Assembly: GCA_034440615.1 (NCBI GenBank)
Contig: JAOTOM010005130.1
Span: forward strand, 578,001 to 642,000
Direction: 5' to 3'
DNA: 64,000 bases
Origin: Ashinkailepas kermadecensis
Lineage: Eukaryota; Arthropoda; Thecostraca; Neolepadidae
This document shows, one piece after another, positions 4,587-60,076 of this stretch (the stretch's first letter is position 1; every line of letters starts with the position of its first letter). The position numbers were made by a program, and so were the translations under genes. The notes beneath the pieces were generated by a model. It worked only from the letters and a program-made list of their open reading frames with translations, did not search any database and had not been told where the DNA came from.

Positions 4587-4732
4587 ACAGACACATGTTC
4601 TCTTGTGTCCCGACCCGGAGTGCTATAGTCCTTGGCTTCCCCTGCACCCGTGCTCTCTGCCCATGACATCCTACCTCACCTGCTGACATCCGACCTCACC
4701 TGCTGCTGCACGTTAACGCTACCTGCTCCCCT

Positions 4733-6216: not shown

Positions 6217-6410
6217 ACCCCTTCTATTGCGGGGACGAGTGGTCTAGGGGTAAGATGCTCGTCTCACAATCGAAAGGTTGTGCGTTCGAGTCTCACCTGT
6301 CGCTACTCTTCGCCCGCGACCAATCGGCGTGAGAGATTGGCGACGCTACATGACTCAACGGTCGACGTGTCGTAAAACCAATAACCAACCAACCAACCCC
6401 TTCTATTGCG
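6217..6410 (+). mobile_element. tRNA-derived SINE with 15-bp target-site duplication
   Basis: The 15-bp direct repeat ACCCCTTCTATTGCG at 6217-6231 and 6396-6410 brackets a 164-bp body. The body opens with a tRNA-like head: an A box in AGTGGTCTAGGGGTAAG, an anticodon-like loop CTCACAA, and a B box GTTCGAGTC. A tRNA-unrelated core (GAGATTGGCGACGCTACATG) follows, ending in an ACCAACCAACC tail. Head, core, simple-repeat tail and perfect duplication make this a clear, fairly young SINE insertion transcribed to the right by RNA polymerase III. Confidence 0.88.
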
Positions 6411-15022: not shown

Positions 15023-15670
15023 GAAGGTCTTTAGGGCAATAACAGGACACAATGAGCAGGTCTCGCTGCAGTCCGAAAAAAATGGCAAGTGAAATTTAAT
15101 TTTGATAAGTGCAAAATCATGCATGTATGTAGGCAGCATGTGAAGGTTCCATACTTGATGGGTGGCCAAATACTATCTGTTATTCAGCAGGAGAAGGACT
15201 TAGATGTTATTTTGAACACAAAATTGGGGACATCAGAACAGACCAAAGAAGCCAGGAAGAAGGCACTAAGAATGCTTGGAGCAATAAATAGGAATGTATC
15301 ATACAAAAGTGCGGAAGTCATCATGAAGCTTTACTGTGCATGTCAGGCCACATTTGGAATACGGTGTCCAAGCTTGGTCCCCTAGTTATGAAAAAGATTG
15401 TTGGTCTTTAGAGAGAGTACAAAAGCGGGCAACAAAAATGGTTAATGGTATAAGCAACCTGGCATATGAGGAAAGATTGAATAAATTGAATATGTTTTCA
15501 CTTAGATATAGAAGGCTGAGAGGAGATCTCATCCAGGTCTTTAAATTTGTTCATGGTCAGGAACAGGGATATCTCAGCGAAATGTTTGAATTTAACAGAA
15601 ATGATGCAATTAGAGGTCATCAATTCAAAATTAAAGTTAATAACAGCAGGACAAGGTTAAGAATTACTTA
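15023..15670 (+). pseudogene. CR1-type LINE, copy 1 continued: C-terminal reverse transcriptase
   Basis: Resumes at GGTCTTTAGGGCAATAAC and encodes KFNFDKCKIMHV, LMGGQILSV, QQEKDLDVILNTKLG and, after a small frame break near 15345, RPHLEYGVQAWSPSYE and YRRLRGDLIQVFKFVHG. It breaks off after the Arg-Thr-Arg-Leu codons near 15660, where a younger CR1 copy is inserted. Its missing 3' end is found at 16957-17215. Confidence 0.85.
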
Positions 15671-15689
15671 ATTACTAAGACAAGGTTAA

Positions 15690-16956
15690 GGTTAAGAATT
15701 AAGAAATACTTTTTGAATTTTGCCACAGAACAATTTGATCAGGGAAATCAGGTTGATGTAGCTTATCTTGGTTTTAGTAAGGCCTTTGACAAGGTACCCC
15801 ATAAACGGTTAATGATGCAGTTTCAGGTCCATGGCATTGCAGGTAGCATCCTGAAATGGATAGAGTTGTGGCTTTCAGATAGACAGCAGATAGTAATGCT
15901 AAATGGTACAAAATCATCATGGCAAAATGTTCTTAGTGGAGTCCCTCAGGGGTCGGTACTGGGGCCACTATTGTGCACTATATTTGTGAATAGCATTGAA
16001 TGTGGCCTAAGCAGTAAGGTTTTGAAATTTGCTGATGATTTGAAGATCTTTAGGGCAATAACAGGGCACAATGAGCAGGTTTTGCTGCAGAACGACTTAG
16101 ACGAGCTTGTGAAGTGGTCCGAAAAATGGCAAATGAAGTTTAATTTTGATAAGTGCAAAGTCATGCATGTAGGTTGGCAGAATATGAAGGTGCCATACTT
16201 GATGGGTGGCCAAGTATTATCTGTGGCTCAGCAGGAGAAGGACTTAGGCGTTATTTTGAACACAAAATTGGGGGCATCAGAACAGACCAAAGAAGCCAGG
16301 AAAAGGCACTAAGAATGCTTGGGGCAATACAGAGGAATGTGTCATACAAAAGTGAGGAGGTCATCAGGAAGCTTTACTGTGCATATGTCAGGCCACATTT
16401 AGAATACTGTGTCCAAGCTTGGTCCCCTAGTTATGAGTAAGATTGTTGGCTTTTAGAGAGAGTACAAAAGAGGGCAACAAAAATGGTTAATGATATAGGC
16501 AAACTGGCATATGTGGAAAGATTGAAGAAATTGAATATGTTTTCACTTAGATATAGAAGGCTGAGAGGAGATCTCATCGAGGTTTTTAAATTTGTTTATG
16601 GTCAGGAACAGGGATATCTCAGGGAAATGTTTGAATTTAACAGAAATGATGCAATTAGAGGTCATCAATTCAAAATTAAAGTTAATCACAGCAGGACAAG
16701 GTTAAGACAGTCTTTCTTCACCAACAGGGTAGTCGAACACTGGAACCAGCTGCCAGGAACCATTGTCAGTAGCAACACACTGAACATCTTTAAAAACGGC
16801 ATAGACAATCATTATAAGAATAGGGTGCTTGTTTTTCTGTATTCCAGGGAGGGCTGATATACAGATGTGGTGGGAAACTGGTTCAGTGTCCAAAAGTGCA
16901 ACCAAGAAGGGCCCTGGTGGCTCATAGTTACACTGATCTTTTATGTCTTTATGTCT
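15690..16956 (+). mobile_element. younger 5'-truncated CR1 copy inserted in copy 1
   Basis: Starts inside the reverse transcriptase (FDQGNQVDVAYLGFSKAF), keeps PQGSVLGPLL and the catalytic FADD block at about 16020, and reads through KFNFDKCKVMHVG to a frame break near 16310. It continues in another frame to the C-terminus (NGIDNHYKNRVLVFLYSREG, stop near 16858). The 3' UTR ends in repeats of ATGTCTTT at about 16940, the typical short-motif tail of CR1 elements. 5' truncation is usual for target-primed reverse transcription. Confidence 0.85.
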
Positions 16957-25890: not shown

Positions 25891-26064
25891 CCGTCCCAAG
25901 TGGCCGCGGTGTGGTATCGCGAGCTAAGTATTGAGGATAGTTGCGGGTCCAGTGACGAGGCAGCAGTTCAGATACCACTCTTCGATGCTGACCGTCGTCT
26001 CCAATGTGAATCCGGTTACGACGCGCGGTTTCTCCTGGTTGCACGCGTTCCTGCCGACCCAGAG
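25891..26064 (+). CDS. internal exon candidate, plus strand, unknown protein
   Basis: A long pyrimidine tract (25861-25886) leads to CTGAG at 25890. A 58-codon frame then runs to GACCCAGAG, followed by the donor GTGACA at 26065. The peptide includes VAAVWYRELSIEDSCGSSDE and later PLFDADRRLQCESGYDARFL, well mixed and protein-like. The exon is phase 0 at both ends; an alternative acceptor after CCCAAG (25900) would also keep the frame. The downstream 22-bp array begins with copies of this exon's last nine bases and its donor. No family recognised, and no partner exon in the same strand is confirmed. Confidence 0.52.
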
Positions 26065-26510
26065 GTGACACGTCACCCGACCCAGAGGCGACACGTCACC
26101 TGACCCAGAGGTGACACGTCACCTGACCCAGAGGTGACATGTCACCTGACCCAGAGGTGACACGTCATTTGACCCAAAGATGACACGTCACCTGACCAGA
26201 GGTGACATGTCACCTGACCCAGAGGTGACACGTCACCTGACCCAGAGGTGACACGTCACCCGACCCAGAGGTGACATGACACTTGCTCCAGAAGTGACAC
26301 GTCACCAGACCCAGAGGTGACACGTCACCCGACTCAGACGCGACACGACACCCGACCCAGAGGTGACACGTCACCTGACCCAGAGGTGACACGTCACCCG
26401 ACTCAGACGCGACACGACACCCGACCCAGAGGTGACACGTCACCTGACCCAAAGGTGACACGTCACTTGCTCCAGAAGTGACACGTCACCCGACACAGGA
26501 GTGACGTCAC
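26056..26510 (+). repeat. 22-bp minisatellite built on an exon-donor junction
   Basis: About 20 copies of GACCCAGAGGTGACACGTCA plus two bases. The first copy is the real junction: exon end GACCCAGAG, intron start GTGACACG. Each copy repeats a potential donor AG/GTGACA. Confidence 0.88.
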
Positions 26511-26534
26511 ATGACCTCGTCACATGACTTTTAT

Positions 26535-26562
26535 CCATGAACAGTCGGGAAACTGTTCATGG
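26535..26562. other. perfect 11-bp hairpin
   Basis: Arms CCATGAACAGT (26535-26545) and ACTGTTCATGG (26552-26562), loop of 6 nt. No surrounding terminator or transposon signature. Confidence 0.85.
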
Positions 26563-26657
26563 AGAAAACTCTGATCGGAAAAGTAGGATGCATTTGCCCG
26601 CCACCTGGCTTAGCCTGTGGAGGGTCGGAGACGTCATGCAGAACAGGACAGAACACC

Positions 26658-27135
26658 GCCACTACCACTACTACTACTACTGCTGCTGCTACAACTATGC
26701 CACCACCACTACTACTACTGCAGAAAAGGACAAAACACCGCCACTACCACTACTACTACTACTACTACTGCTGCTGCTGCTACAACTATGCCACCACCAC
26801 TTCTACTACTACTACTACTACTGCTGGTATACCACTGATACCACAGATAGCAATACGACTACCGTTGTTACTACAACATAGCAATAGTGGTACACGACTG
26901 CATAGTGATGGTGGCAACTGTAGCAATAGTAGTAGTAGTAGTCATGGCTGGAGATCCCAGATGGGTCGGAGGGTCTGGACCCCTCTTAGTTTGGTACCCT
27001 GCTAATGTTAATTTGTAACTTTCCCTATTCAATCTGGAAATATGTCTTGCGACTTGGACACTCCCTGGCTTCGTGAGAGATACCCAGCCCTGGTAGTAGT
27101 AATAGTAGCATTAGTAGTAGTAGTAGTAGTACGCA
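26658..27135 (+). repeat. ACT/TAG trinucleotide repeats
   Basis: Two blocks of (CTA/ACT)n with GCTGCTGCTACAACTATGCC spacers at 26658-26835, and TAG-type runs at 26920-26942 and about 27095-27132. The first block is itself a duplication (GACA(G/A)AACACCGCCACTACC at about 26647 and 26729). Confidence 0.85.
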
Positions 27136-27196
27136 TAGTTGCATGAACAAATCAAAATACACTACTTGAACTCACTCATTGGTGAGACGCCAGCAC

Positions 27197-27266
27197 ATGT
27201 ATTGTTGTTTGTTGTGTTGCATGTATTGTTGTGTGTTGTGTTGCATGTATTGTTGTGTGTTGTGCC
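27197..27266 (+). repeat. 24-bp minisatellite, three copies
   Basis: Three copies of ATGTATTGTTGTGTGTTGTG plus TTGC. Confidence 0.8.
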
Positions 27267-27411
27267 AACACACGTGTGTTCACCATCAGCTGAAGACAGC
27301 TAATGCTTGATTTGCAAGTCTCCATCCGTAGGTGGGGTGTCGTTCTTTACTATTAGTTGAGCATAACAAGTTCATCTGGGATAAATTGAGGTGTTCACGT
27401 TGATGATGGTG

Positions 27412-29470
27412 TTTCACTGTCCAGTAGATGTGCGGTGTTTACCGTCCAGTAGATGTGCGCTGTTTACTGTCCAGTAGATGTGCGGTGTTCACTGTCCAGT
27501 AGATGTGCGCTGTTTACCGTCCAGTAGATGTGCGGTGTTTCACTGTCCAGTAGATGTGCGATGTTTACCGCCCATTAGATGTGCGCTGTTTACCGTACAG
27601 TAGATGTGCGGTGTTTACCGTCCAGTAGATGTGCGATGTTTACCGCCCATTAGATGTGCGCTGTTTACCGTACAGTAGATGTGCGGTGTTTACCGTCCAG
27701 TAGATGTGCGGTGTTCACTGTCCAGTAGATGTGCGGTGTTTACTGTCCAGTAGATGTGCGGTGTTTACTGTCCAGTAGATGTGCGGTGTTCACTGTCCAG
27801 TAAATGTGCGGTGTTCACTGTCCAGTAGATGTGCGGTGTTCACTGTCCAGTAGATGTGCGGTGTTCACTGTCCAGTATATGTACGCTGTTTACCGTCCAG
27901 TAGATGTTCGGTGCTCACTGTCCAGTAGATATGCGGTGTTTCACTGTCCAGTAGATGTGCGGTGTTCACTGTCCAGTAGATGTGCGGTGTTTACTGTCCA
28001 GTAGATGTGCGGTGTTTACTGTCCAGTAGATGTGCGGTGTTCACTGTCCAGTAAATGTGCGGTGTTCACTGTCCAGTAGATGTGCGGTGTTCGCTGTCCA
28101 GTAGATGTGCGGTGTTTACCGTCCAGTAGATGTGCGGTGTTCACTGTCCAGTAGATGTGCGGTGTTCACTGTCCAGTATATGTACGCTGTTTACCGTCCA
28201 GTAGATGCTCGGTGCTCACTGTCCAGTAGATATGCGGTGTTCACTGTCCAGTAGATGTGCGCTGTTTACCGTCCAGTAGATGTTCGGTGCTCACTGTCCA
28301 GTAGATGTGCGGTGTTCACTGTCCAGTAGATGTGCGATGTTCACTGTCCAGTAGATGTGCGGTGTTCACTGTCCAGTATATGTGCGGTGTTCACTGTCCA
28401 GTAGATGTGCGGTGTTTACCGTCCAGTAGATGTACGCTGTTTACCGTCCAGTAGATGTTCGGTGCTCACTGTCCAGTAGATGTGCGGTGTTTACCGTCCA
28501 GTAGATGTGCGGTGTTTACCGTCCAGTAGATGTGCGGTGTTTCACTGTCCAGTAGATGTGCGGTGTTTACCGTCCAGTAGATGTGCGCTGTTTACCGTCC
28601 AGTAGATGTGCGGTGTTCACTGTCCAGTAGATGTGCGGTGTTTACTGTCCAGTAGATGTGCGGTGTTTACTGTCCAGTAGATGTGCGGTGTTCACTGTCC
28701 AGTAAATGTGCGGTGTTCACTGTCCAGTAGATGTGCGGTGTTTACCGTCCAGTAGATGTGCGGCGTTCACTGTCCAGTAGATATGCGGTGTTCACTGTCC
28801 AGTAGATGTGCGGTGTTTACTGTCCAGTAGATATGCGGTGTTTACTGTCCAGTAGATGTGCGGTGCTCACTGTCCATTAGATGTGCGCTGTTTACCGTAC
28901 AGTAGATGTGCGCTGTTTACCGTCCAGTAAATGTGCGGTGTTTACCGTCCAGTAGATGTGCACTGTTTACCGTCCAGTAGATGTGCGGTGTTCACTGTTC
29001 AGTAGATGTGCGGTGTTTACCGTCCAGTAGATGTGCGGTGTTTCACTGTCCAGTAAAAGTGCGTTGTTTACCGTCCAGTAGATGTGCGGTGTTCACTTTC
29101 CAGTAGATGTGCGGTGTTTCACTGTCCAGTAGATGTGCGCTGTTTACCGTCCAGTAGATGTACGCTGTTTACTGTCCAGTATATGTGCGGTGTTTACCGT
29201 CCAGTAGATGTTCGGTGTTTACCGTCCAGTAGATGTGCGGTGCTCACTGTCCAGTAGATGTGCGGTGTTCACTGTCCAGTAGATGTGCGGTGTTTACCGT
29301 CCAGTAGATGTGCGGTGTTTACCGTCCAGTAAATGTGCGGTGTTCACTGTCCAGTAGATGTGTGGTGTTTACCGTCCAGTAGATGTGCGGTGTTTACCGT
29401 CCAGTAGATGTGCGGTGTTCACTGTCCAGTAGATGTGCGGTGTTCACTGTCCAGTCGATGTGCGTGTCCT
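27412..29470 (-). repeat. 25-26-bp minisatellite, about 80 copies, derived from an exon donor junction
   Basis: Two kilobases of a unit that on the minus strand contains CACATCTACTGGACAGTG preceded by AACACCG. The adjacent minus-strand exon (29481-29650) ends AACACAGACATCTACTG and its intron begins GTCAGT. The monomer is thus a copy of that junction with GT changed to GA in most copies. The array starts 10 bp inside the intron. Confidence 0.93.
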
Positions 29471-29480
29471 TGCTACTGAC

Positions 29481-29650
29481 CAGTAGATGTCTGTGTTAGA
29501 GTTGGAGTCTATGCCCATCTTGATACAGCTGCCAGTGTCCACAGTGCCGACCACCAGCTGACTGCACTTCACGTACTTGGGCTCCAAGAAGTGCGCTTGG
29601 TTGTCCCAGACTCCGGTGGCCACGTGACCCGCCGGGCACTTGTGTTCACC
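29481..29650 (-). CDS. exon of minus-strand Cys-rich gene 2 (exon g)
   Basis: Minus-strand exon of 170 bp between acceptor GATATTGACAG and donor GTCAGT. It reads GEHKCPAGHVATGVWDN, then EPKYVKCSQLVVGTVDTGSC and ends in SNSNTDIY plus two bases. Cysteines in KC.AGH, VKCSQ and GSCIK suggest a disulfide-bonded extracellular module. I do not recognise the family. It starts in phase 0, matching the phase-0 end of the exon at 30359-30498. Its two bordering introns both carry minisatellites made of its own splice junctions. The 3' continuation of the gene was not found to the left. Confidence 0.68.
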
Positions 29651-29850
29651 CTGTCAATATCGGCCGTCAGGTACCACCTGTCAATGTCGGCCGTCAGCTA
29701 CCACCTGTCAATATCGGCCTTCAGCTACCACCTGTGAATGTTGGCCCTCAGCTACCACCTGTCAATGTTGGCCCTCAGCTACCACCTGTCAATGTCGGCC
29801 GTCAGCTACCACCTGTCAATGTCGACCGTCAGGTACCACCTGCCACGGCC
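29651..29850 (-). repeat. 27-bp minisatellite derived from an exon acceptor junction
   Basis: Seven to eight copies. On the minus strand each contains GGCCGA(C/T)ATTGACAG, the acceptor of the exon at 29650. Each copy is therefore an AG acceptor look-alike. Confidence 0.88.
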
Positions 29851-30358
29851 GGTGGTAGCTGTCGGTGGTTGCAGCAGCTGGCAACGCCGGTGGCAACAGT
29901 GGCAGCAGTGGTAGCTGTCGTATGGTCGGTGCGGACTATCTGCGGTTGGTTGTGTCTCCCGGTTGGTTGGTTGTGTCTGCGGTTGGTTCTGTCTCCCGGT
30001 CAGTTCAAGAGACTTCACGATTGATGGAAAAGCTCGGGCGAAGGAAGCTATGGTCAACATTGATTTGAGGATCTGCATATGCTGAAAGTTCATGGAAGTG
30101 AAGGTTGTTCGAACACTCGACAGTGAGCGGATGACGTAGTGCTGCTGTGGAGGGGCGCACACTTCTTGCATGAGGGATGACACGAGAGAGATTGCGCGAT
30201 TGCAAGATTGCACGCGAGAGGTGCACAAGAGGGGCACGAGAGACTCACGAGTCTACTCTCGACAGCAAGCAGCGTGGGGTATTTGGTGAATGGGGTCAGA
30301 TGCAGTGGGTGGCCTTGGTTCAGGTCGCCCCCCCCCCTCCCTCCCTGCTGAGAGTTAC
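29851..30358. other. intron of gene 2, no further feature
   Basis: Contains short GTTGGTTGTGTCTCCCG duplications at 29945-30000 and GAGAG-rich sequence. No exon is supported. Confidence 0.4.
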
Positions 30359-30498
30359 CGTTGTGGTCACGTCCAGTGCGTGTCCGTTGGTTGGGTCCAC
30401 GGTCAGGTGGATGTTGGCGAAGCGGGTGCAGAGCAGCAGGTCCATGTCGCGCGGAATGTTCTTGCCAACTTTGTCAAGTCTACTCAGACCCATTATTC
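30359..30498 (-). CDS. exon of minus-strand Cys-rich gene 2 (exon f)
   Basis: Minus-strand 140-bp exon from acceptor GTGCCGCAG to donor GTAACT. Two leading bases complete the codon of the upstream exon; 46 codons follow, including KVGKNIPRDMDLLLCTRFAN and HLTVDPTNGHALDVTT. Balanced composition, one cysteine, no stop. The start phase fits the exon at 32057-32236 and the end phase fits the exon at 29481-29650. Function unknown. The flanking upstream array contains repeated copies of its acceptor plus its first dozen bases. Confidence 0.7.
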
Positions 30499-31260
30499 CT
30501 GCGGCACAGCATTAAACAGCTCAGCCCAACACACCTGCACAACACCGGCACACAGCTCATCCCAACACGCCTGCACAACACCGACACACAGCTCATCCCA
30601 ACACACCAACACACCTGCACAACACCGGCACACAGACCCATTATTCCTGCGGCACACCATTAAACAGCTCAACCCAACAAGCCTACACAACACCGGTACA
30701 CAGCTCATCTCATCACACCAACACACCTGCACAACACCGGCACACAGCTCATCCCAACACACCAACACACCTGCACAACACCGGCACACAGACTCATTAT
30801 TCCTGCGGCACACCATTAAACAGCTCAACCCAACACGCCTGCACAACACCGGCACACAGATCATCTCATCACACCAACACACCTGCACAACACCGGCACA
30901 CAGCTCATCCCAATACACCAACACGCCTGCACAACACCGGCACACAGCTCATCCGAACACACCAGCACGCCTGCACAACACCGGCACACAGACCCATTAT
31001 TCCTGCGGCACAGCATTAAAGAGCTCAACCCAACACGCCTGCACAACATCGGCAGACAGCTCATCCCAACACGCCTGCACAACACCGGTACACAGCTCAT
31101 CTCATCACACCAATACACCTGCACGACACCGGTAAACAGCTCATCCCAACACACCTGCACAACACCGGTAAACAGCTTATCTCAACACACCTGCACACCT
31201 GCACAACACCGGTTCACCACTTAATCCAATACCTGCACAACACCGGCACACAGTTCTCCC
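30499..31260 (-). repeat. compound minisatellite containing copies of the exon acceptor junction
   Basis: Basic unit about 35 bp (plus strand CAGCTCATCCCAACACACC, then TGCACAACACCGGCA). Longer units at about 30637, 30791 and 30988 also contain CCCATTATTCCTGCGGCACA, which on the minus strand is the acceptor TGTGCCGCAG followed by the exon's first bases GAATAATGGG. So the real junction at 30498/30499 has been copied at least three times. Confidence 0.9.
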
Positions 31261-31639
31261 CGACACACCTGCAAATTATCCTAATACCTGAAAACCATAA
31301 TAATCTGAAAAACCATAATAATCATAACATCGCCGCACAACTAACCCCGGATATGCTGAACAGCATCGCTCTGGAAATGCCGAACATCTACTTCGACATT
31401 GGCTTGTCTGCATCAATGAGCTTGTTGACGTTGACTTTTAGTCCTGCTGTGGCATCTCTGGTGATTTGGCGAATCTTTGATTCAAGTGACAATATTTTCC
31501 GCACCTGTCCTGGACAATCTGGTGCATCCAAAACGACAACGATGGAGCTATTGTGTAGTATGCCTTACTTTGCCCAGCTTAAAGCATGGTCATCCTCATC
31601 TGCCAACAGTAAGTCCATTCTCAACTGTCAGGACTGTAT
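31261..31639. other. intron of gene 2, no recognised feature
   Basis: Unique DNA between two arrays. Short open frames without splice support. Confidence 0.4.
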
Positions 31640-32056
31640 GGTCATCCTCATCTGTCAGAATGCATGACCATCCTCACCTGTCAAGAGAGTAAGGTCATCC
31701 TCACCTGTTAGGACAGCAGGGCCATCCTCACCTATGAGGAGTATGGCCATCCTCACCTGCCAGTAGTACGGTCATCCTCACCTGTCAGGAGTATGGCCAT
31801 CCTCACCTGCCAGTAGTACGGCCATCCTCACCTGCCAGTAGTACGGCCATCCTCACCTGTCAGGAGTATGGCCATCCTCACCTGCCAGTAGTACGGCCAT
31901 CCTCACCTCTCAGTAGTACGGCCATCCTCACCTGTCAGGAGCATGGCCATCCTCACCTGCCAGTAGTACGGCCATCCTCACCTGTCAGGAGTATGGCCAT
32001 CCTCACCTGCCAGTAGTACGGCCATCCTCACCTGCCAGTAGTACGGCCATCCTCAC
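31640..32056 (-). repeat. 25-26-bp minisatellite derived from an exon donor junction
   Basis: About 16 copies. On the minus strand the monomer is CTGACAGGTGAGGATGGCC plus a few bases, where CTGACAG is the end of the exon at 32057 and GTGAGG its donor. Every copy keeps CAG/GTGAGG, a near-consensus 5' splice site. Confidence 0.93.
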
Positions 32057-32236
32057 CTGTCAGGACAGTATGAACTCCCCCGCTGGTGCTGCAGTCGTAT
32101 TTCCACTCAGCGTCGGCATCTTTTGATCCAGATGTATAGTCGTTGGTGTCCAAGTTGGCTGGCTCCATACTGTGATCTTCGTATATGCTGAAGAAGAACT
32201 GGCCCAAGCCCGTCCACGTCTCCACGCGCGACACAC
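32057..32236 (-). CDS. exon of minus-strand Cys-rich gene 2 (exon e)
   Basis: 180-bp minus-strand exon between acceptor CCGGTGTTACAG and donor GTGAGG. Reads VSRVETWTGLGQFFFSIYED, then DYTSGSKDADAEWKYDCS and HTVLT. Rich in aromatic and acidic residues, one cysteine, no recognised domain. It has two leading and one trailing base, matching both neighbours (32522-32563 before, 30359-30498 after). The downstream intron starts with an array of its donor junction. It is one of the best supported exons here because both splice sites are strong and the phases agree. Confidence 0.75.
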
Positions 32237-32282
32237 CTGTAACACCGGGCACACTCGTCTGTGGCACTCACGCAGCCTGCCG

Positions 32283-32521
32283 CTCGACACCGCAGAAACT
32301 CACCGGCGACTCCACAGGAACTCACCGGGGACTCCACAAGAACTCACTGGGACTCTACAGAAACTCACCGGGGACTCGACAGAAATTCACCAGGGACTCC
32401 ATGGGAACTCACCGGGACTCTACAGAAACTCACCGGGGACTCGACAGAAATTCACCAGGGACTCCATGGGAACTCACCGGGGACTCGACAGAAGCTCACC
32501 GGGGACTCCATGGGAACTCAC
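32283..32521 (-). repeat. 21-22-bp minisatellite derived from an exon donor junction
   Basis: About 11-12 copies. On the minus strand GTTTCTGTCGAGTCCCCG then GTGAG is the monomer, copying the exon end (GTTTCTGTCGAGTCGCCG) plus its donor GTGAGT. A variant has CCCATGG in place of TCTGTCG. Many copies keep CCG/GTGAGT. Confidence 0.92.
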
Positions 32522-32563
32522 CGGCGACTCGACAGAAACTCCTCGGCAGCATGCAGTACTTTG
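32522..32563 (-). CDS. short exon of minus-strand gene 2 (exon d)
   Basis: Minus-strand 42-bp exon ending at a strong donor (CGCCG/GTGAGT). The 5' edge is placed at the acceptor GCGCTGCAAG because it gives two leading bases, as required by the one trailing base of the exon at 38436-38589. It encodes KYCMLPRSFCRVA and leaves one base for the next exon. The donor edge is well supported; the acceptor edge is a phase-based choice, and an earlier acceptor near 32618 is possible. Confidence 0.48.
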
Positions 32564-37610: not shown

Positions 37611-38435
37611 TGTTTAATTAAAAGATTAGCCAAAAAACACACATTGGGCCACACCAATAAATTTTGCGATGTCCCACACCTGCCAAGATTCGCCACATTT
37701 GGAGGTGCCAAGATCTTGGCGCATGCACTTGGAGATGCCATGGTTACTGCTCACTGTGAGTCGGTATATCTGAAGTTGACATACTTATTACACAGCAACG
37801 AATGAGTACACAGACTGCACGTACTGACGCCAAACTGACGCACCAATCCTGCACACATTCAGGCAAGGAACAGTAATCAAACCAATGGGTGCCACGCCAA
37901 CAATGGTGCTCGTACCAAGCACACCTCAATTATGATAACAAACTGATGCGATTCGAAAATTGTGCGACTCGAGGCAATGTGCAAGGAGTGCATAGCATGA
38001 GAAGCAGGGCTGGAACCATGGGCTGGGAAATCATACCAAATGTGTCATAACTTAAGAAAACCAAGAAAATGTGTTACACATATAATGAAATGGAGGAAAT
38101 CAAAGTTTTCATAACACGAAACTTGGTGGAACAATTCTCGAAACTGGAGGGTATAAATGACGCCGTTTTCGAAACTGGGGGCCATGTCCTCTCGGGACCG
38201 GCTCACGTTGCACCCATGCTTCGTATAATCGTGTAAATCCTTGTGCTTGCCTCATGTATCGTGTATCTGTCCGCAAATCTGTGTAGACAAAGGTACCCAT
38301 TGTCCCATGCCGAGTGGTCGAAAGGCATGCACATGCATAGGCAAATGCACAACTGGTGACGCTATGCACGAATGTGGAGAAGGGGCAGCGTCAGTAACAT
38401 GCAAGGATCCTCACCTGAGTCGGAGGATTCCTCAC
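37611..38435. other. intron of gene 2, no recognised feature
   Basis: No array or supportable exon. Confidence 0.35.
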
Positions 38436-38450
38436 CTGAGTCTGAGATCA
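38415..38450 (-). repeat. two-copy duplication of an exon donor junction
   Basis: On the minus strand GACTCAGGTGAGGA occurs at the real donor of the exon ending at 38436 and again 21 bp into the intron (GACTCAGGTGAGGATCC). This looks like the earliest stage of the array formation seen at other exons of this gene. Confidence 0.7.
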
Positions 38451-38589
38451 GTTTGGCGGGGAACCGACACCGGCCGCTGTCCGACAGACACTTGGCATCT
38501 CTGACGGTCTTTTCCCAGTTGGACGGAGCGGAGGTTGGGAACTCTTCGAAGAAGTTGCAGTGATTGTCCTCGGTACACGGCCACTCAGC
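38436..38589 (-). CDS. exon of minus-strand Cys-rich gene 2 (exon c)
   Basis: Donor GACTCAG/GTGAGG is strong. With the acceptor at GTCTGCTTCAG (38590) the exon begins AEWPCTEDNHCNFFEEFPTS, continues with KCLSDSGRCRFPAKL and leaves one base. This start is in phase with the phase-0 end of the Thr-rich exon. Cysteine spacing (PCTEDNHC, KC...GRC) suits an extracellular disulfide module. Odd point: another frame just upstream (38590-38690) reads GAVLIGELCCADRSCAVNTH, also Cys-rich, so an earlier acceptor, a second exon or a sequence indel cannot be excluded. Confidence 0.5.
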
Positions 38590-40767: not shown

Positions 40768-43700
40768 GATCTTTTATTTATTTATTTATTTCACGATGTA
40801 TGCCCTCCACGTATAGTGGCTGTTATGGACAGTCTGGATATAGCTCACAGATATGTACAAAGAAAGGATAGATTTCTGGTCAATAGTGGGAGCAGATGCG
40901 CAACAAACATTCATACACCAACATAATACAATACCCATATCACTATCTGCACTACACACACCGTGCTTGCAACACGAGCTATACACGAGTAGTTTATAGA
41001 AGTGATAGGAAAGCGATGGCCTAAATATGAGTTCATAGTGTACACAAATCCATTTTGTAAGTTTTTTGTTGTTGCTAGTGTTGCTCGTGGAGATAAGCTA
41101 GTACATGCTTATTGAAGTTAGAGAGCCTCGATGTTTTTGTTTCAGTAGGGAGTTTGTTGTAGTGGAAGACAGACGAGTAGATAAATCTCCTGCGGCCCGC
41201 CTCTCTGTGTATGGCTGACAGGTGCAGGTGGTCGTCTGCACGCGTATGACGGTTTCGCAGGGTAGAGTTTGCCGTGATTTGACCGGCAATGTGTGTTGGC
41301 TCACCCGTCAGAATGATATTGTGGAGCAAAGTAAGGCTGTGAAATAGATGCAGATCAGCTGCGGTGAGGAGACCCAACTCGTTACGGGCATCAGAAATAT
41401 GATCAAATTTCCGTAGACCTGACACGACTCTAGTAGCGAAGTTAATGATCTTGTCTAGTCTGTGGATGTTTGCTGCCGACCCGTTCCCGTAAACACATAT
41501 GCAGTAGCGGATATTGGATATAACTAGGCTATTGACTATAGTGAAGAGGGTACTGGTTGGCAGATGGTGACGCAGATGGCTCAGGGCCAGAAGGAATCCA
41601 GTGCACTTGCGGACCACAACAGCTACATGGGAATCCCACGACATGTGGCGATCAAATGTCACCCCAAGGTTCCTACACGAGTGACTCTCATCTATCACGG
41701 CGTCCCTAAAGCACACTCGTATCGGGGTAATATTGCGAAGATTTTGACGCGACCCGAACGTGAGAAGCTGAGTTTTGGTCGGGTTTACCTTCAAACCGTT
41801 TTCCAGGAAGTATTCGTAAAGTTGGTTCAGACATGTCTCCATCTGATTTATCAGACTTGGGAGATCAGATTTGCGACCGGAGATGAGGATCTGGGTGTCG
41901 TCTGCAAACTGAGTGGCGTGTGCTACCGGGACGTGCAAACTGAGGTCGTTTGAAAAGATGCAACAGAGGAGTGGACCTAGTGATCAGCCTTGAAAAACAC
42001 CTATGTTGTTTGGGAGAAAGGAGGAGAGATTTCTGTTTCCGCGTTGATCTGAGATGCTAACAGCCTGCGTGTGACCTCCCAGATAAGCCCTAATCCAGTC
42101 GGTATCGATTCCATGGAGTTCCAGTTTAGTGAGCAGTTTGGTGTGATCTATTACGTCGAAGCATTTACTGAGGTCCAGAATGCAAAGGAGAGATACTTCC
42201 GAACGGTCCATTGCTGCTAGTATTTTGTCCGTGACTGAGATGAGAGCGGTTTCCGTAGAGTGGCGTGGTCTGAAGCCGTGCTGAGTTTGGGCCAGTAGGT
42301 GGTTTGAGTTCAGATAGTGATAGAGTTGTTTCTGCACTTGTATAGTATTATATACTTGTATGTGATAGAGTTGTTTCTCTCTGTGATTTTGGCGATAACC
42401 TGAGCCAATGAGATGGGCCTAAAATTATAGGAACCCGAAGGATCTCCTGATTTGTGAATGGGAGTACTATTGACTATTGACTGTTTCCAAGTGGAGGGGA
42501 TATCAGCTGTAGTCAGGCATGTGTTTATAATGTCGAGCAGCACTTCTCCGATAAAAAAGAACAGAAATTTGACAACCTTAATACAGATCCCGTCGGGTCC
42601 GCAAGCACTTGTACTCCTCATGTCCATGACAATTTTTGTTAGCTGTTCGAGGGATATGGGTGATACTTTATAGGAGCTGGTAGAGACGCGCGATAGCCGG
42701 CAACAGGGAGGTGTGTGTTCAGGCATGTTTGCCTGGCGTTTGACCTCTGCTGATACCTTAGGTCCGACACTAACAAAGTATTGATTTAGCTGCTCAGGTA
42801 GGACCGGAGGTTGAACTCTATGAGAGCCTTTTTGGTGTCGATAATGGGCTTAATAGCACGCCACGCAGCTGATGGACCTTTCTGAGCTATCTTTCTGCTA
42901 ATATCGTCCCTACAGTCAGCCCTAATAGCTGAGCGAACTTGCCTGTTAAGTACTTTGTATGTGCTTCTATCTTGCAAGTGCAAAGCTACATTTCGCCGGT
43001 GCATGAGCTGCTTGGTAGCTTCGCTGACATGTGGTGCTGTTGGGTTCCGAATTTTGATTTTATGAGTGGCAATTTCTGATGTGGCAGGTGCTCGTCGAGA
43101 ATAGGTGTCAGCAATTTCAGCAGGGTGTCCCATTTGTCAGTTACTGAGGTGCGCCCAGTGACCTGGACCCAGTCGATCTCATCAAGGTCAAGGGTCAGTT
43201 CCGAGGTATCTACTCATCCGTAAGAGCGTGACTTTATCACGGTGTTAACTGAGGCAGGCCTGTTTACTTTACTGGAACATATGATACCTTTGTGAGGACT
43301 GTAGTGGCAGAAACTCACTCTGGTTCTGCCGACAGAGATGGGCGAGTTTGTTGTGATGACATCCAATAAAGAGCCTGTGGCGAATGTAGGGCGCTGCACT
43401 GTCACGGTAAGTGAATAGTTCCTGATGAACTCAAGCCGGTGTGCTTTGCTGAGGCTACAAGCCGTGTCGAGAAGATTACAATTTAGATCACCTGCGAGGT
43501 AGAAAGTGCCGGTAAAGTTCAGTGTCGCCAATTGAACCTGTCTTTCGAGCTCAGCGAAGTCACATTTAAGGCAGGAAGAGTGTTACGAGGAGGCCGATAG
43601 ATTGCCGCTAGAATGAAATACTTTTCGCTTTTCCCTTTGACTTTGGCCCAGAGTGATTCTAGTTTGGAACTCGAGTTCGGAGGCGTTTAAATTTTCAAAA

Positions 43701-51939: not shown

Positions 51940-52101
51940 GACGCTCCATTGCGAATGACCACCTCAATGGAGCTAACATTAAGCAAAAAGTGAACCTACA
52001 GAGGAAGGAAGGAAAAAAACATCCGTAGGAAACGAGACCCGAAGAAACAGAAATCGAACCACAAAAATGTTCAGCACGTTCGTGTTAAACCCAACACTCC
52101 C

Positions 52102-54620
52102 ATGTGTTGGATTAAAATCGGGAATCAGAAGGCTTATACGCTCGTTGATACAGGAGCAGATATTTCGCTAATTTCAAAGGAACTTTTTGACAAAATCACG
52201 GAAAAACAGACTCTCAGATTTTCAGAGGATGAAAAAGATCGCATCCCACTCATTTCAGCAAGCGAGCATCGTTTGAAAAACATTTGTGTAGGAACATCTA
52301 GAGTCGAGATGAGTAAATTCAGTAAACCATTCAGCTTCCAAATTGTAGCCGGACTGAAACAACAATGCATGTTAGGAAACGATTTCTTAACCGAGTTTGG
52401 AGCAAAATTGGACTTCGAGAAAAAAGCCTTGCGTATCGAAGGTCATATGATTCCGCTTCGCGTTCAGCGCACGATTAGCGAACAGGCGAGTTCGCTAGTC
52501 AGACTAAAAGGACGCACATATATCCCGGCCAATACGGTCGTGGAGTGTCTGGCAGCTGTGAACAGGGCGCAACTGGTAAATCAAACGTGCTATGTGAGGT
52601 CACTGGATAATACACCAGTAATTTCCGAGGAGCCAGGCTTAATCATAGCCGAGGTAGTGGCAAAACCAACTCGCCATAAGCGTCTACCAGTAAGAATTAT
52701 AAATACGTCCACCCGAGACTTCACAATGTATAACAATCAAGTGATCGCCTACGCTGAGAGAATAGATGACACGGATCTGGAGTACCTTGTTGACATGCCA
52801 CAAGACCTTGACTTAGCCCCGACCACCTCACCCACTGACCCAGTTGAGCAAGTGCGACTGGCTCATCTGACCGACGCTGACAGGGACGATCTCGAACAGC
52901 TGTTACGAGCCAATGCTGACCTGTTTGCCGCGACTGACGCCGACCTCGGTACAACTGACCTCGCTGAGATGGAGATAGAGACCGCTGACCACGCACCCGT
53001 CCGTCAGCCGCCTTACAAAACACCGTTTAGCCAACGAAAATATGTGGAAGAACAGATACGTATCATGCTAAAGGCTGGTATAATAGAGGAATCCGACAGT
53101 CCGTGGGCCGCACCCATAGTGATAGTGCGAAAAAAGATGGTTCAAATAGGTTTGCAGTCGACTATCGGAAACTAAATAATATTACGAAGAAAAACAGCTA
53201 TCCCCTTCCACTGATAGAAGATATTCTCGCGTCTCTCGGAGGAGCAAACTTCTTCTCATCACTAGATCTAAAGTCAGGATATTGGCAAATCCCAATGGCA
53301 AAAGATAGCATACCTAAGACATCGTTCATCTGCTTCGTGGGCCTGTGGAACTTCAGAAAAATGCCCTTTGGAATCTGCAACGCTCCGAGCCTCTTTGCAC
53401 AAGAAATGTCCAAAGTCCTATCTGGAATACAGAATCAATTTGCAACTGCATACATCGACGACATAATAATATATTCAAAAAATTTACGGAACATCTAGCT
53501 CATTTGAAGGAAGTTTTTCGTCGCCTGCGAAAAGCACAGTTGAAGTTGAAAATATAAAAGTGTGAGTTTCTAAAAAAGGAAGTACAATACCTAGGACACG
53601 TGGTATCAGCCTCTGGCATGAAGCCAAACCCGGAGAAGGTAGAAGCTATACAGTACATGGCAGCTCCGACTACCGTGAAAGGAGTCCGATCATTTATCGG
53701 CATGTGTTCTTACTATCGACGTTTCATCCCTAAATTTAGCCAAATAGCCACGCCGTTGATTGACTTAACGAAGAAACATGCCATATTTAAGTGGACAGAT
53801 AATTGCGAAAACGCTTTTACAACATTAAAACAAAAACTAGCTTCTGCACCAGTACTGGCTTATCCAGATGTCACTAAAGACTATAAATTGTATACCGACG
53901 CCTCACTGAGAGCGGTAGGAGCAGTTCTAGTACAGGAACACAATGGTGAAGAGAAAGTAATCCAGTACCTGTCTAAACAACTTAACGAAACACAACAAAA
54001 ATGGCCGATCGTTCAGTTGGAGGCATACGCGTGTGTGTACGCAGTCCTAAAATTACGTCAATATCTGCTGGGATCAAAATTCACCATCCTGACCGATCAC
54101 AGACCACTTACATTTTTAAATCTGTCAGAAATGAAAAACCCCATGCTACAGAGATGGGCTATCATGCTTTCCGAGCACAACTGTGAAATTGTATACATTA
54201 AAGGGCCAAAGAACATTGTCGCAGATCACCTCAGCCGAATGAGTGAAACCAATCAGAAAATAAATGTAATCGATTCCGACCACGTTCCCGTGGGAGACTT
54301 CAGGGGTACCGAATTCAGTAAACCGGAGGAAGAGTTGAGTCGAGAAGATAAATTCAAGGATGTATTAATGAGTTGGGAAAATATTGAAAAAATCCAGAAA
54401 ACAGACGAGGAAATAAAAAAATTCGGAAAATAATAAAAGATAAAAACCATCGGATTATAAAAGTGTAGTTCTACACTATATGGAGTAAGACAAACTAATT
54501 TATAAAATTAGCGAAGGACCACGCTGTGGACCGTTCCCTGGACTACAATTATGCGTGCCAAAATGTTTGAGACAATAATTATTTAAAGAATTTCATGAAG
54601 GCTTCTTTGCCAGACATATG
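52102..54620 (+). pseudogene. pol of element A (protease, reverse transcriptase, RNase H, start of integrase)
   Basis: Aspartic protease active site LVDTGADISLISK near 52141. Reverse transcriptase from about 53025, with catalytic YIDD near 53450. RNase H has YTDASLRAVGAV near 53890 and a terminal VADHLSRM near 54225. Frame breaks occur near 53135 and 53485, with a stop near 53555. After 54433 the integrase N-terminus survives only as fragments (GPRCGPFPGLQLCVPK, then GFFARHMG). Reading stops at the element B insertion. Confidence 0.88.
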
Positions 54621-54624
54621 GGAT
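54621..54624 (+). other. target-site duplication of element B, left copy (GGAT)
   Basis: GGAT at 54621-54624 immediately before the left LTR is repeated as GGAT at 63731-63734 after the right LTR. Joining the flanks across one copy restores continuous coding of element A. Confidence 0.9.
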
Positions 54625-55394
54625 TGTAAGAGAGTTAGTTTTTGAGCGTCTTGATCCCATATAATTCAGCAATACCCCTTCGTTCATGGCGCGACAAGTT
54701 GCCGGCTCCGAGACTGGCGTCGGCCTGTCTGCTGCCTACGTCAGCAGCCACCGCCCGAACGGAGACGTACATTGGACCTTGTACCTTCCCCTCCCTCCTT
54801 CCGGCTGACACCCCGCCAGCCAGGCGCCAGAGACGTGACCTCTATTCGACCGGCGCGTACCGCCGCCGTCGTTAATGCTAGATGTAACTGTGTTCACATA
54901 AAGTTATACGTTTGGCTGTCCCGTAACCGTAATTGATATAATCCCGTAAGCCTTGCGATTGTAAAAGTGTACCGTAAACGTAACACATCGTCACCGCCAC
55001 TAGAAACAGACCATTTCCCCTTCTAGAAGGCCGTCGACATGGATGTGACGTCAAGGAGGGTTCTGCGCCCTCGACCAATCCGCGGCCGGGGGTCTCCCGA
55101 AGTCACTAGCGGCCGTGCGGCCCCAGGCAGTCGGTCTTGAATCCTCTGAGCGAGCGGATCGCTGCTACGCGTGCGCGCTTCCCAACTAAATTCGGCTTCT
55201 AAATTCATAGGAAAGGCAGTATCACGGCTTACCTTCCGAGGAGAACGTACTGTACGGTGTCTGTAGTTCTCGTGTGATCGTGGAGTGCTGCAGTGCAATA
55301 CAGGGCAGCAAAAGGTACTGGTACTTTCGTGACTGGAGTTATCGCGAACCAAGAGGTTGCTAGACTTTCGCGTGATAATAAGGACTTTCCTACA
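54625..55394 (+). repeat. 5' LTR of element B
   Basis: 770 bp from TGTAAGAG to CCTACA. About seven differences, including one 1-bp indel, from the 3' LTR at 62962-63730, i.e. about 99% identity. Confidence 0.93.
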
Positions 55395-55849
55395 AGTGAG
55401 GCCGTGACCCGGATTTTTTTGCGACACTTTTTGCAAACATTTTTTGCGAAGATTTTTTGCAAAACGTTTTGCGAAACTTTTTTGCAAAACATTTTGCGAA
55501 TTTAATTTTTGTTCGAAATTTTCTGCGCAATTTTCTTCGACCTTCTGCAAGCCCAACTAGAACAACACCAACTGGACCTTCAATCACGCCGTTTCAGCAC
55601 GGACGAGCAAGAGAACGTCTTCCGCTTCATTTACGTAAGTCCGAGCAAAATCCATCATCCTTTTAAAAATACTAATTTGGGATTTTGACCACCTAAAACG
55701 GTTTTAAAAATTGCATAATTGTGCTGTATACCTACCATGTTCTGAATACTGTGTGTGGGAACTACTTTGTGAACATCGAGCCGAATTTGAAACATAGAAA
55801 TCTCCACAAAAGTGAGCGAATAATTTTGAAAAATATAGAATAATTAAAT
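55395..55849 (+). promoter_or_regulatory. leader of element B with conserved donor-like site
   Basis: 455-bp leader. GTAAGTCCGAGCAAAATCC at about 55637 aligns with GTAAGCCCGGAAAATTCC in element A (about 50728), each about 200-215 bp upstream of gag. The rest of the leaders is much less similar. Poly-T/GCGAAA-rich sequence at 55410-55520. I could not identify a convincing primer-binding site. Confidence 0.5.
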
Positions 55850-56886
55850 ATGACTGAAATTTCTACTGATAGATTGGCGGAGTGCTTCAACAAAATTCGC
55901 TTAGAGATGCGCGCACAAGGGATGACGCAGAATATTAAACCTTTTTCTGGAGAAGGTCATAATAAATTAATTGAATGGCTAAGGCATCTTGACTAAATTA
56001 ACTTCAGCATGGATGACGAACAGATGCAGATCATTTGCATCAAAACGCTCACTGGACCTGCAGCCGAGTTCATGCAGCGCGTATTCGTGGAACAACCACT
56101 TATGACGTGGACACAAATCAAGCACGTCATGCGGGAAAGATATTCGGACCTCTCGGATAACAAATGCGCTCAGGAGGGTCTACGAAAACTGCGCCAAAAT
56201 CGAGATCTTGTTCAGAATTTCGGTGATAAATTAACCGCACTGGCACGGGAAGCTTACTCAGATGTCGAAAATCCCACGGTTCCGGAAACTCTCATTGATA
56301 TTTTTAACAAAGGTGTCCAAAGTAGCTCATTGGCAAACAAGCTGTACAGACAGAACTTCCGGACCCTGGAGGAAGCCATCCAGTTTGCAGTAAAGGAACA
56401 GAAGGTAGACAGAGTAATCGAGGTATGCAGAGGCGTGCAAAAGCAGGAGCCGATGGAAGTCGACTCAAATCAGCCAGACACAGGAGAGGACAAGGTAGAT
56501 AAACTGGAAAAAAACTTATTATGGCAATAGGCCAATCGGTGGAAAAATTAGCGGCAACCAAGCCAGAAACTCCGAAGCCACCCAGGGAGAACCAACCCCA
56601 GCCTGGACCACGGGTGTTCCATCCCACCTACCCACGTTACCCACGTCCGCCACGAAACTACCCCTCAGGACCACGCTTTGGACCACCTTAGTCAGGACCC
56701 CACTATGGACCACAGCAGCCACGACCTCCTATGGGCCCCAGAGTATGGAGAGCACCACCCAACACCGACCAGCACCCAGCTTACCGCTGGACTCCCGATG
56801 GTAGACCCATCTGTATCAGGTGTGCCAAAATTAGTCACATTGGAAGAAGATGCCGCTCTCAGCCAATTAGCCAGGCGGAAAACTAA
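55850..56886 (+). pseudogene. gag of element B
   Basis: ATG at 55850 (MTEISTDRLAECFNKIRLEM). A stop TAA interrupts at 55994; the frame continues through VFVEQPLMTWTQIKHVMRER and ALAREAYSDVENP to about 56515. There an A-run marks a frame change. The second frame has a Pro-rich linker with a TAG at about 56688 and a CCHC knuckle (CIRCAKISHIGRRC) near 56815, and ends at TAA 56884-56886. That stop overlaps the ATG of pol (TAATG). Confidence 0.85.
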
Positions 56887-59800
56887 TGAGCTCTGTCGCG
56901 ACTGACCACCGTGATGGGGCTGAGCAAATTCAGACGGAGGAAATACCGAGAAAAATGAGGAAGAATATCAGAAAAAAGCGCGACCCCGAAAAACGTAAAC
57001 AAAGATTGGCACGCGTCCAACAAGTCCACATCAAGGCAAACACGCCTATGGCATGGCTTCACATCGGACACCAGAGAGCCTATTCTCTAGTGGACACGGG
57101 AGCCGACATATCGTTTATTTCGAAAAAATTATTTGATAAAATCGCGGAGAATAATATTATAAATTTATCACAGGACCGACGAGATTGCATACCACTGATA
57201 CCCGCCAGTGGCCACCGCCTGAAAAACATTGGAGTTGGAACCTTCATGGTGGAGATGAGCAAATTCTGAAAACAATTCGAATTTCAAATTGTGGAGGACC
57301 TAAAACAGGAGTGCATGATGGGGAATGATTTTTTGACGAAGTTTGGAGCGAAGCTAGACTTTGAGAAGAAAGCCCTCTGCATCGAAGGAAACATGATTCC
57401 TCTCAGACCACAAAAACAGAACAGTGAACCAACGAGCTCACTCGTGCGAGTCAAGGAAAGAGTTCACATTCCCGCCAACGTCGTGGAATGCCCAGCCTTC
57501 ATTAACCGTGTCCAACTAGTAGATCAAAACTGTCATGTACACTCGCTGGATAACATGCCGCTGATCTCTGAGGAACCTGGCTTGTTCATAGCCGAAATAA
57601 TAGCGAAGCCTGACCAACACAAACGCGTACCAGTGCGAATTGTCAACACTACAATTCGTGATTTCTCCTTGCACCCAGAGCAGGTGATTGCATTCGCTGA
57701 GACTATAGACGATTCTGACTTGGAAAACCTGATTGACATGACACAGGACATTGAACTGACACCGCCAACCACTCCCTCTGACCCGCTTGATCAAGCCAAT
57801 CTGGCTCACCTGACTGGTGCAGACAAAGACAGACTCGAACAACTGTTACGTGCTAACACTGACTTATTTGCCGAGACTGACGCAGATCTTGGAACGACTG
57901 ATGTCATCAAAATGGACATTGACACTAGAGACAACCCGCCGATCCGACAAGCTCCTTACAAAACCCCATTCTCTCAGCGAAAATACGTAGAGGAACAAAT
58001 TAAAGTGATGCTAGACGCTGGTATCATTGAGGACTCAGACAGTCCTTGGGCCGCCCCGATCGTGATCGTTCGCAAAAATGATGGAGGTAACAGATTCGCG
58101 ATTGACTTCAGAAAACTCAACAAGGTGACCAAGAAAAATAGCTACCCACTCCCGCTAATTGAGGACATTCTCGCCTCTCTGGGAGGTGCGAACTTCTTTT
58201 CGTCTTTGGACCTGAAAGCTGGTTATTGGCAAATTCCGATGTCCGAGGAGAGTATTCCAAAAACAGCCTTCACATGTTTTATGGGACTTTGGAACTTTCG
58301 CAAAATGCCATTCGGAATTTGCAATGCACCCTCCAAGTTCGCAGAATTGATGAACAAAGTGCTGTAAGGAATTCAAAATCAGTTTGCAACCGCCTACATC
58401 GATGACATAATCGTCTACTCCAAAACATTTGACGAACATTTGGCCCATCTGGAAGAAGTTTTTCGCAGACTGCGAAAAGCGAAATTGAAACTAAAACTGT
58501 CGAAATGTGACTTCTTGAAGGAAAGAGTACAATACTTGGGACACCTAGTGTCAGCCTCTGGCATCAAGCCAAACCCCGAGAAAGTGGAAGCGATTCAACA
58601 CATGGCAGCCCCGACCAATGTCAAGGGAGTCCGCTCATTCATCGGTATGTGTTCATACTACCGTCGCTTCATTCCCAACTTCAGCAAAATCTCCACGCCA
58701 CTTATAAGCCTCACAAAGAAACATGCCCGATTTGATTGGACAGACGAGTGTGAGATTGCTTTTGAAACTCTGAAACAAAAATTAGCTACCGCACCCGTGC
58801 TGGCATATCCCGACACCACGAAAGAGTACAAATTATACACGGATGCCTCCCCAGGAAGCAGTTGGAGCCGTGTTAGTGCAGGAACACGGAGAAGGTGAAC
58901 GAGTGGTACAGTACCTGTCGAAACAGTTGAATGAGACACAACGGAAGTTGTGTCCGGAAGGCCAGTTGTTCCGCAACAACGGCCAACAACGGAAGGCCAG
59001 TTGTTCAGAAAGAATCCTATGCGTGCGTGTGGAGTGTGCAAAAATTACGCCAATATTTCCTTGGATCGAAATTCACCATTCTGACCGATCACCGTCCACT
59101 TACTTTTTTGAACCTGTCAGAAATGAAAAATCCCATGTTGCAGAGATGGGCGATCATGCTTTCAGAGCACGACTGCGAAATCATATACATTAAAGGAAGC
59201 AAAAATATCGTGGCTGACCACCTTAGTCGAATGCACGAAACTGACCAGGACGTGAACGTCATAGATTCAGACCATGTACCAATGGGTGATCTCCGTCACA
59301 CTGAATTCAGAAAACCAGAGGAAGACCTGAGCAGAGAGGAAAAATTTAAGGAAGTACTAGTGAAATGGGAGAATATAGCGGAACTGCAGAGCGCCGATGA
59401 GGAAATAGCAAATATTCGGACAATCATGAATGACAAAAATCACTCAGATTATCGGGACATCGTTTTGCGTTACATGGAATTGGACAAACTGATCTACAAA
59501 ATTAGCGATGGACCTCGCTGTGGACCATTTCCAGGCTTACAACTATGCGTGCCAAAATCCCTGAGACAAGAAGTATTGAAGGAGATGCACGATGGTTTCT
59601 TTGCAGGACACATGGGACTCACCAAAACGTACGAAAAGCTTAAATTCAGGTATTATTGGAACGGAATGTGGAGAGACACAGTGGCCTACCTCAAAGCTTG
59701 CGTGCCTTGCACAGGACGCAAAGCCAAAGCAGCCCCAGCCCCGATGCAGGAGATGCCAGTACCTCACTATCCCTTTGAAATGATTGCGATTGACACTTGT

Positions 59801-60076
59801 GGACCATACCCAGAAACACAACAAGGTAACCGTTACGTCATCACGATCATCGACTTGTTTTCTTCTTGGCCGGAAAGTTTCTGCACTAAGCGAAAGGATG
59901 CCCATACTGTCGCGAAAATCCTTATGGAAGAAATCATCCCACGCCACTCATGTCCACGCGTGATACTTTCGGACTTAGGAACAGAATTCAGAAATGCCGT
60001 TGTAGACGAGCTGGAAACTTGTTTGAATATTCGCCATATCACCACCAGTGCATATCGGCCACAAAGTAACGGATGA
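56886..60076 (+). pseudogene. pol of element B (protease, reverse transcriptase, RNase H, integrase core)
   Basis: Protease LVDTGADISFISK near 57090; stop at 57267. Reverse transcriptase from about 57970 includes FGICNAPSKFAELMNKVL, then a stop at 58365; catalytic YIDD near 58400. RNase H is entered at YTDAS near 58840, where the frame breaks. A small duplication around GGAAGGCCAGTTGTTC (58958-59008) breaks it again. It resumes as GSKFTILTDHRPLTFLNLSE and VADHLSRM. Integrase: HHCC zinc site (HMGLTKTYEKLK...CVPCTGRK) near 59610-59715, DDE core residues in IAIDTCGPY and VILSDLGTEF. A TGA at 60074 lies just before the codons holding the third catalytic residue. Non-functional as written. Confidence 0.9.

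Follow-up and report, generated by a model that had tools for sequence, protein, structure and literature searches.

Tandem repeats carrying copies of an exon edge together with its splice site lie beside several exons of a predicted gene in a 64-kb stretch of DNA from the neolepadid barnacle Ashinkailepas kermadecensis (contig C4633, positions 578001 to 642000, here called the window) and recur beside exons of three further genes of the same genome. In a small sample of exon edges that had not been picked for their arrays, such junction-spanning repeats were present at 6 of 36 edges (17%, 95% interval 6 to 33%). Random positions were spanned in 228 of 1172 cases (19%) and positions inside the same introns in 163 of 646 (25%), so that no excess at exon edges was seen (Fisher p = 0.83 for edges versus random positions), and the excess expected of a class of repeats directed to splice junctions was absent from this small sample, with which a modest preference is nevertheless compatible. 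The arrays are probably explained by pervasive ordinary tandem duplication that is tolerated by splicing, with no need for a mechanism specific to junctions. A preliminary description of the window had held that exon edges were preferentially chosen and that a special mechanism was called for, and had proposed a test for an excess of junction-containing monomers; run here at small scale, that test gave no excess over control positions.

The arrays of interest are best read as intronic, within a single predicted gene on the minus strand at 25.9 to 38.6 kb of the window, modeled from frames, phases, and splice sites alone. Its candidate exons E2 (32057-32236), E4 (30359-30498), E5 (29481-29650), and E6, which includes the stop codon (25924-26050), join into a single open frame that closes with a stop codon, with the introns in phases 1, 0, and 2. 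A probable upstream exon, E0 (38436-38589, with its donor after 38436), has an open frame, an acceptor, and a donor and is in phase with E2, without homology. The joined protein found no relative in PDB or the protein database and a single sub-threshold match in Pfam (searched up to E = 1); these queries, like the genome search, were made with a version that still included a false exon at 31392-31563. E0, E2, E4, E5, and E6 had no further match elsewhere in their own genome. The false exon (minus strand) was dropped; it is matched at 10 more places in the genome, each on a different contig other than that of the window, and 7 of these matches contain stops, so that we read it as part of a dispersed repeat lying in an intron. 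We presume that it resembles a Penelope-like retroelement; Pfam and PDB searches of its relatives gave no name. With 31392-31563 not counted as an exon, the phase-compatible E4 acceptor becomes CCGCAG/GAATAATGGG (a slash marks the exon-intron boundary), and the array next to it then spans the junction. This result is conditional: were 31392-31563 an exon, the phase-compatible acceptor of E4 would move 18 bp inward, and about 5 bp would separate the repeat units from it.

Tandem Repeats Finder returned 93 rows for the window, among them the six arrays that had been described as built from an exon edge and its splice site. All six exist, and four of them fit that account fully or partly. At the E2 donor, an array of 25-bp units (31591-32065, 18.7 copies) carries TCCTGACAG/GTGAGG or near variants, with 16 exon bases in common in the best gapped match and GT kept in 15 of 18 scored copies. 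Use of the inner donors of this array would, among 14 tested, lead to a stop in 13 cases and to a frame shift in 1, and because of this the inner donors are presumably not used. The array at the E4 acceptor (30485-31260) has long units of about 156 bp that include the acceptor and the first exon bases, CCGCAG/GAATAATGGGTCTG; three long units hold the acceptor with 17 exon bases, the best of them matching at 39 of 41 bases, and AG is kept in all three. Exon bases and an intact site are thus both present in these two arrays. The array at the E5 acceptor (29650-29842, 27 bp, 7.1 copies) fits in part, as its units (TTGACAG/G) contain the acceptor and a single exon base, with AG in 6/6 copies. The longest array, at the E5 donor (27408-29497, 25 bp, 83.2 copies), does carry the exon end, with about 17 exon bases in a gapped match that falls slightly under the threshold of the ungapped test described below, but not the donor itself; GT is kept in none of 82 scored copies, and 76 of the 82 have GA. 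It may be that long donor arrays grow only after the decoy has been disarmed.

For the other two arrays, the claim was not confirmed. Near the E6 acceptor (26056-26516, 23 bp, 20.2 copies), the match stops 3 bp before the junction, and AG in register is kept in 0/17 copies; the array of 22-bp units with CCG/GTGAGT at 32286-32541 retains GT in 9/9 copies and adjoins an exon (32522-32563) that is putative only. In addition, a two-copy 21-bp duplication (38404-38446) lies across the E0 donor, GACTCAG/GTGAGG. All of these repeats are given on the minus strand. The reported occurrence at both donors and acceptors is borne out in the window and in other genes. Occurrence on both strands was not confirmed in the stretch, where the arrays sit in introns of a single predicted minus-strand gene, and involvement of two or more genes was likewise not confirmed within the stretch but is seen elsewhere in the genome. 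Nor were tens of decoy sites confirmed beside each true site. Elsewhere in the window, a two-copy repeat with CAG/GTGAGG (4664-4705, minus strand) resembles a donor duplication; no exon is recognizable beside it.

In all, the pattern is seen in four genes, each on its own contig: the window gene, CLEC16A, a tyrosine-kinase gene, and CCT beta. For the latter three, the positions of the junctions were taken from the reading frame, the splice consensus, and comparison with vertebrate proteins. CLEC16A (PF19439) is represented by 8 exon matches on contig C4685. One of its exons (L021 7893-8012) has spanning arrays at both sides; taken alone, this exon falls under the Pfam cut-off (E = 0.0017), and its position between matched neighbors fits CLEC16A. 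At a second exon, the donor, CACAATAAGG/GTGAGG, recurs in 45-bp units, and a third shows an 85-bp two-copy duplication of the exon end and donor (L038 1612-1780) in which about 75 exon bases are copied. That last copy could turn into a new exon. At a CLEC16A acceptor in L043, the array stops short of the junction. In the receptor-tyrosine-kinase gene (PF07714, L031), which we take to be FGFR, an acceptor is spanned by 69-bp repeats (3 units) and a donor by 31-bp repeats (11 units); the exon 5 acceptor, also among the three spanned kinase edges, has a lone other copy 407 bp away and is thus not an array but two copies far apart. One donor of CCT beta (for which all 4 exons submitted had TIGR02341 as best NCBIfam match) is spanned by an array of 12.5 copies of a 30-bp unit. 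The splice dinucleotide is kept in 6/7, 12/13, 7/13, and 1/2 of the CLEC16A copies and in 13/19, 2/2, and 1/1 of the kinase copies. Beside two donor-like arrays (L027 1-466 and L028 4094-4558), no verifiable exon was found. Putative exons with adjoining arrays in L032 and L020, which have no homology support, were kept outside all counts.

For the positional test, a position was scored as spanned when an ungapped repeat of the 40 bases around it, reaching over both sides of the position, was present up to about 600 bp into the intron. Random positions came from 20 stretches of 10 kb taken at a fixed offset from the 20 longest contigs, which is not a genome-wide random sample, and the intron-interior positions lay 60 to 400 bp inside the introns of the scored edges; a shuffled-neighbor control gave 7/287. 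By gene, the spanned edges were 3/11 in the tyrosine kinase, 0/4 in a RapGAP-like gene (PF02145 and PF21022 matches), 1/12 in CCT beta, and 2/9 in CLEC16A without the L021 exon. The kinase and RapGAP-like exons had come from a codon-usage scan trained on the CLEC16A and window exons, and CCT beta was picked since its exons fit one stretch. CLEC16A had come to notice by its arrays, and the count becomes 4/27 if this gene is left out. The L021 exon (2/2 edges spanned) was excluded, as it had been noticed through its donor-like array. Also left out of the 36 were the last kinase donor, which had too little sequence; the CLEC16A exon B donor and exon C acceptor, the exon in L040, and the first CCT beta acceptor, all unplaced; and the CLEC16A exon F acceptor, which was scored later and was negative, bringing the count to 6/37 homology-placed edges (16%). 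An earlier version of the edge test gave 5/25 (7/27 with the L021 exon) versus 281/1451 and 115/465. The first positional tests (5/7 and 6 or 7/14 arrays at edges, P from about 1e-5 to 1.6e-3, and lower still in the strictest form) were based on the gene model with the false exon and on arrays picked in the preliminary description, and they are superseded by the test given above.

We propose that minisatellites arise almost everywhere in the barnacle genome by tandem duplication followed by expansion, through slippage or unequal exchange. In the 200 kb of sampled stretches, 138 arrays cover 19% of the sequence. A duplication that straddles an exon edge would place copies of the exon end and its splice site in the intron, and it would be tolerated because the copy abutting the exon stays in place and usable; that copy would still be spliced, and the inner copies would become intron. 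Duplications within exon bodies would mostly be removed by selection, and therefore arrays would end at the exon edge or a few bases past it and would appear to be attached to it. Array coverage 20 to 60 bp inside the exon edge is low (1 to 2 of 27 edges).

A number of observations weigh against this explanation, and some of them bear on the idea that exon edges are hot spots of tandem duplication, with R-loops, template switching, or repair at splice-site sequence as possible causes. In the window gene, 4 of 8 edges are spanned (P = 0.051 versus random positions, uncorrected for the selection of this gene), and another two arrays are found at an edge or close to one. The 95% interval on the sampled edge rate is wide. 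Arrays cover 11 to 13 of 26 to 27 edges at 40 to 180 bp into the intron versus 5 to 8 of 25 to 26 beyond 320 bp. A donor motif (8 or 9 of 9 places) occurs in 6 of 56 window arrays, where shuffling predicts 1.57 and the reversed motif occurs in 2; among the 138 arrays of the genome sample, it occurs in 5, slightly above the 3.42 expected (reversed motif, 1), and perfect donors occur in 2 versus 0.19 expected. Against such a junction-directed origin, the 36 unselected edges show no excess, and some arrays, such as that at 26056-26516 and the one at the CLEC16A acceptor in L043, end short of the junction. We consider it improbable in comparison with ordinary duplication. The loss of GT throughout the E5 donor array is a further point against simple tolerance, as it could hint at selection on decoys.

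It has also to be asked whether the arrays are retained for a function, for instance, as a regulated supply of alternative or decoy splice sites. Most copies of several arrays do keep the dinucleotide (15/18, 13/19, 6/7, and 12/13), but such retention is expected of young copies, one array keeps it in 0/82 and another in 7/13, and the inner donors of the E2 array lead to stops or a shift; we regard a retained function as very unlikely. Misassembly of the arrays or of their copy numbers is less likely still and seems very doubtful. Assembly is difficult for arrays that reach 83 copies, and the arrays were judged on the assembled sequence only, but their copies differ by substitutions and small indels, and the same pattern is found in four genes on four contigs. 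Ordinary tandem duplication tolerated by splicing would account for the junction bases shared within the arrays, for decoy dinucleotides both kept and lost, and for the similar frequency of spanning repeats at edges and elsewhere in this small sample.

The host assembly comprises 907,663,968 bases in 4689 contigs, and the sampled stretches have a G+C content of 49.4% and a CpG observed/expected ratio of 0.89. Its COX1 gene, on contig C223, has an in-frame TGA and was read with the invertebrate mitochondrial code; among the best 120 of 8000 matches, the product is 99% identical to that of Leucolepas longa (446 residues given), a thoracican barnacle of the family Neolepadidae, 93% identical to a Balanomorpha cluster, and 91% identical to Scalpellum and Lepas. 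Partial COX1 matches at C223:38474-39067 and C1390:57514-57993 (L046 and L047) may be nuclear copies or belong to a duplicated mitochondrial contig. Myosin exons at C4679:1572303-1578251 and C3897:152508-154220 belong to open frames with reported lengths of 2036 and 2275 residues; perhaps whole introns there are free of stops, being arrays of stop-free units. In the window, open frames on the plus strand at 51994-61350 have retroviral-type protease, RNase H, reverse transcriptase, and integrase domains and are apparently pieces of long terminal repeat (LTR) retroelements. Two more reverse-transcriptase fragments (PF00078), which we take to be CR1- or jockey-like, lie at 15644-16312 (plus strand) and 41075-41983 (minus strand), and ten other open frames gave nothing above Pfam cut-offs. 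One Rfam tRNA match at 6238-6298 (plus strand), barely above the gathering score and not found by ARAGORN, is perhaps a tRNA-derived repeat.

The preliminary description knew of no named class of repeats of this kind, but a name exists. Tandem repeats across exon-intron boundaries were called "mirages" in amphioxus Adh3, and later accounts (PMC3087553, PMC3902484) describe them further in the amphioxus globins Gb6 and Gb9 and in PGBD5 and cite TnC. According to these accounts, both 5' and 3' boundaries can duplicate, AG and GT are kept in many but not all copies, splicing is seemingly regular, and length instability is reported; they offer no clear mechanism. The barnacle repeats are similar in that their units span the exon-intron boundary (31591-32065, 30485-31260, and 38404-38446, and 29650-29842 with one exon base), in that homology-placed cases exist in CLEC16A, the tyrosine-kinase gene, and CCT beta, in that both donors and acceptors are affected, and in that dinucleotide retention varies from 0/82 to 12/13 in arrays of more than 10 copies. 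They differ from the mirages as described there in their arthropod host, in a background rate that was measured and revealed no excess at edges, and in being known here from DNA alone.

Two other systems are related in part. Human genes in segmental duplications have internal tandem repeats at exon-intron boundaries (PMC2812944), and, like the barnacle arrays, these are minisatellites at such boundaries that are able to change gene structure; they were discovered by way of repeat variability in genes of recent duplication, and for the human genes a tie to new introns is reported. Intron gain through tandem duplication of splice-site-bearing sequence (PMC4974935) likewise involves the copying in tandem of splice-competent sequence, with the new intron described for that system. 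A search of the open-licence literature, judged by titles, found no barnacle or crustacean case of mirages. As far as literature searches go, what is new here is that the host is an arthropod and that a rate is available, about one edge in six in the sample.

The spliceosome presumably copes with repeated edge copies at about that share of the sampled edges. We see roughly even chances that the broader reading is correct, namely, that about a sixth of all barnacle exon edges carry tandem copies of their own splice site, that thousands of junctions thereby constitute natural tests of how the spliceosome chooses among up to dozens of near-identical sites, and that mirages are to be expected in any minisatellite-rich, intron-bearing genome and are not a cephalochordate oddity. 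The extension of mirages from amphioxus to an arthropod, with a first rate set against background, would make of a curiosity something to be expected in genomes rich in minisatellites. A mechanism specific to junctions would no longer be needed, unless a larger count shows otherwise. The rows of near-identical splice sites may serve as natural material on whether the exon-proximal site always wins, and the arrays as raw material for the study of intron gain by duplication.

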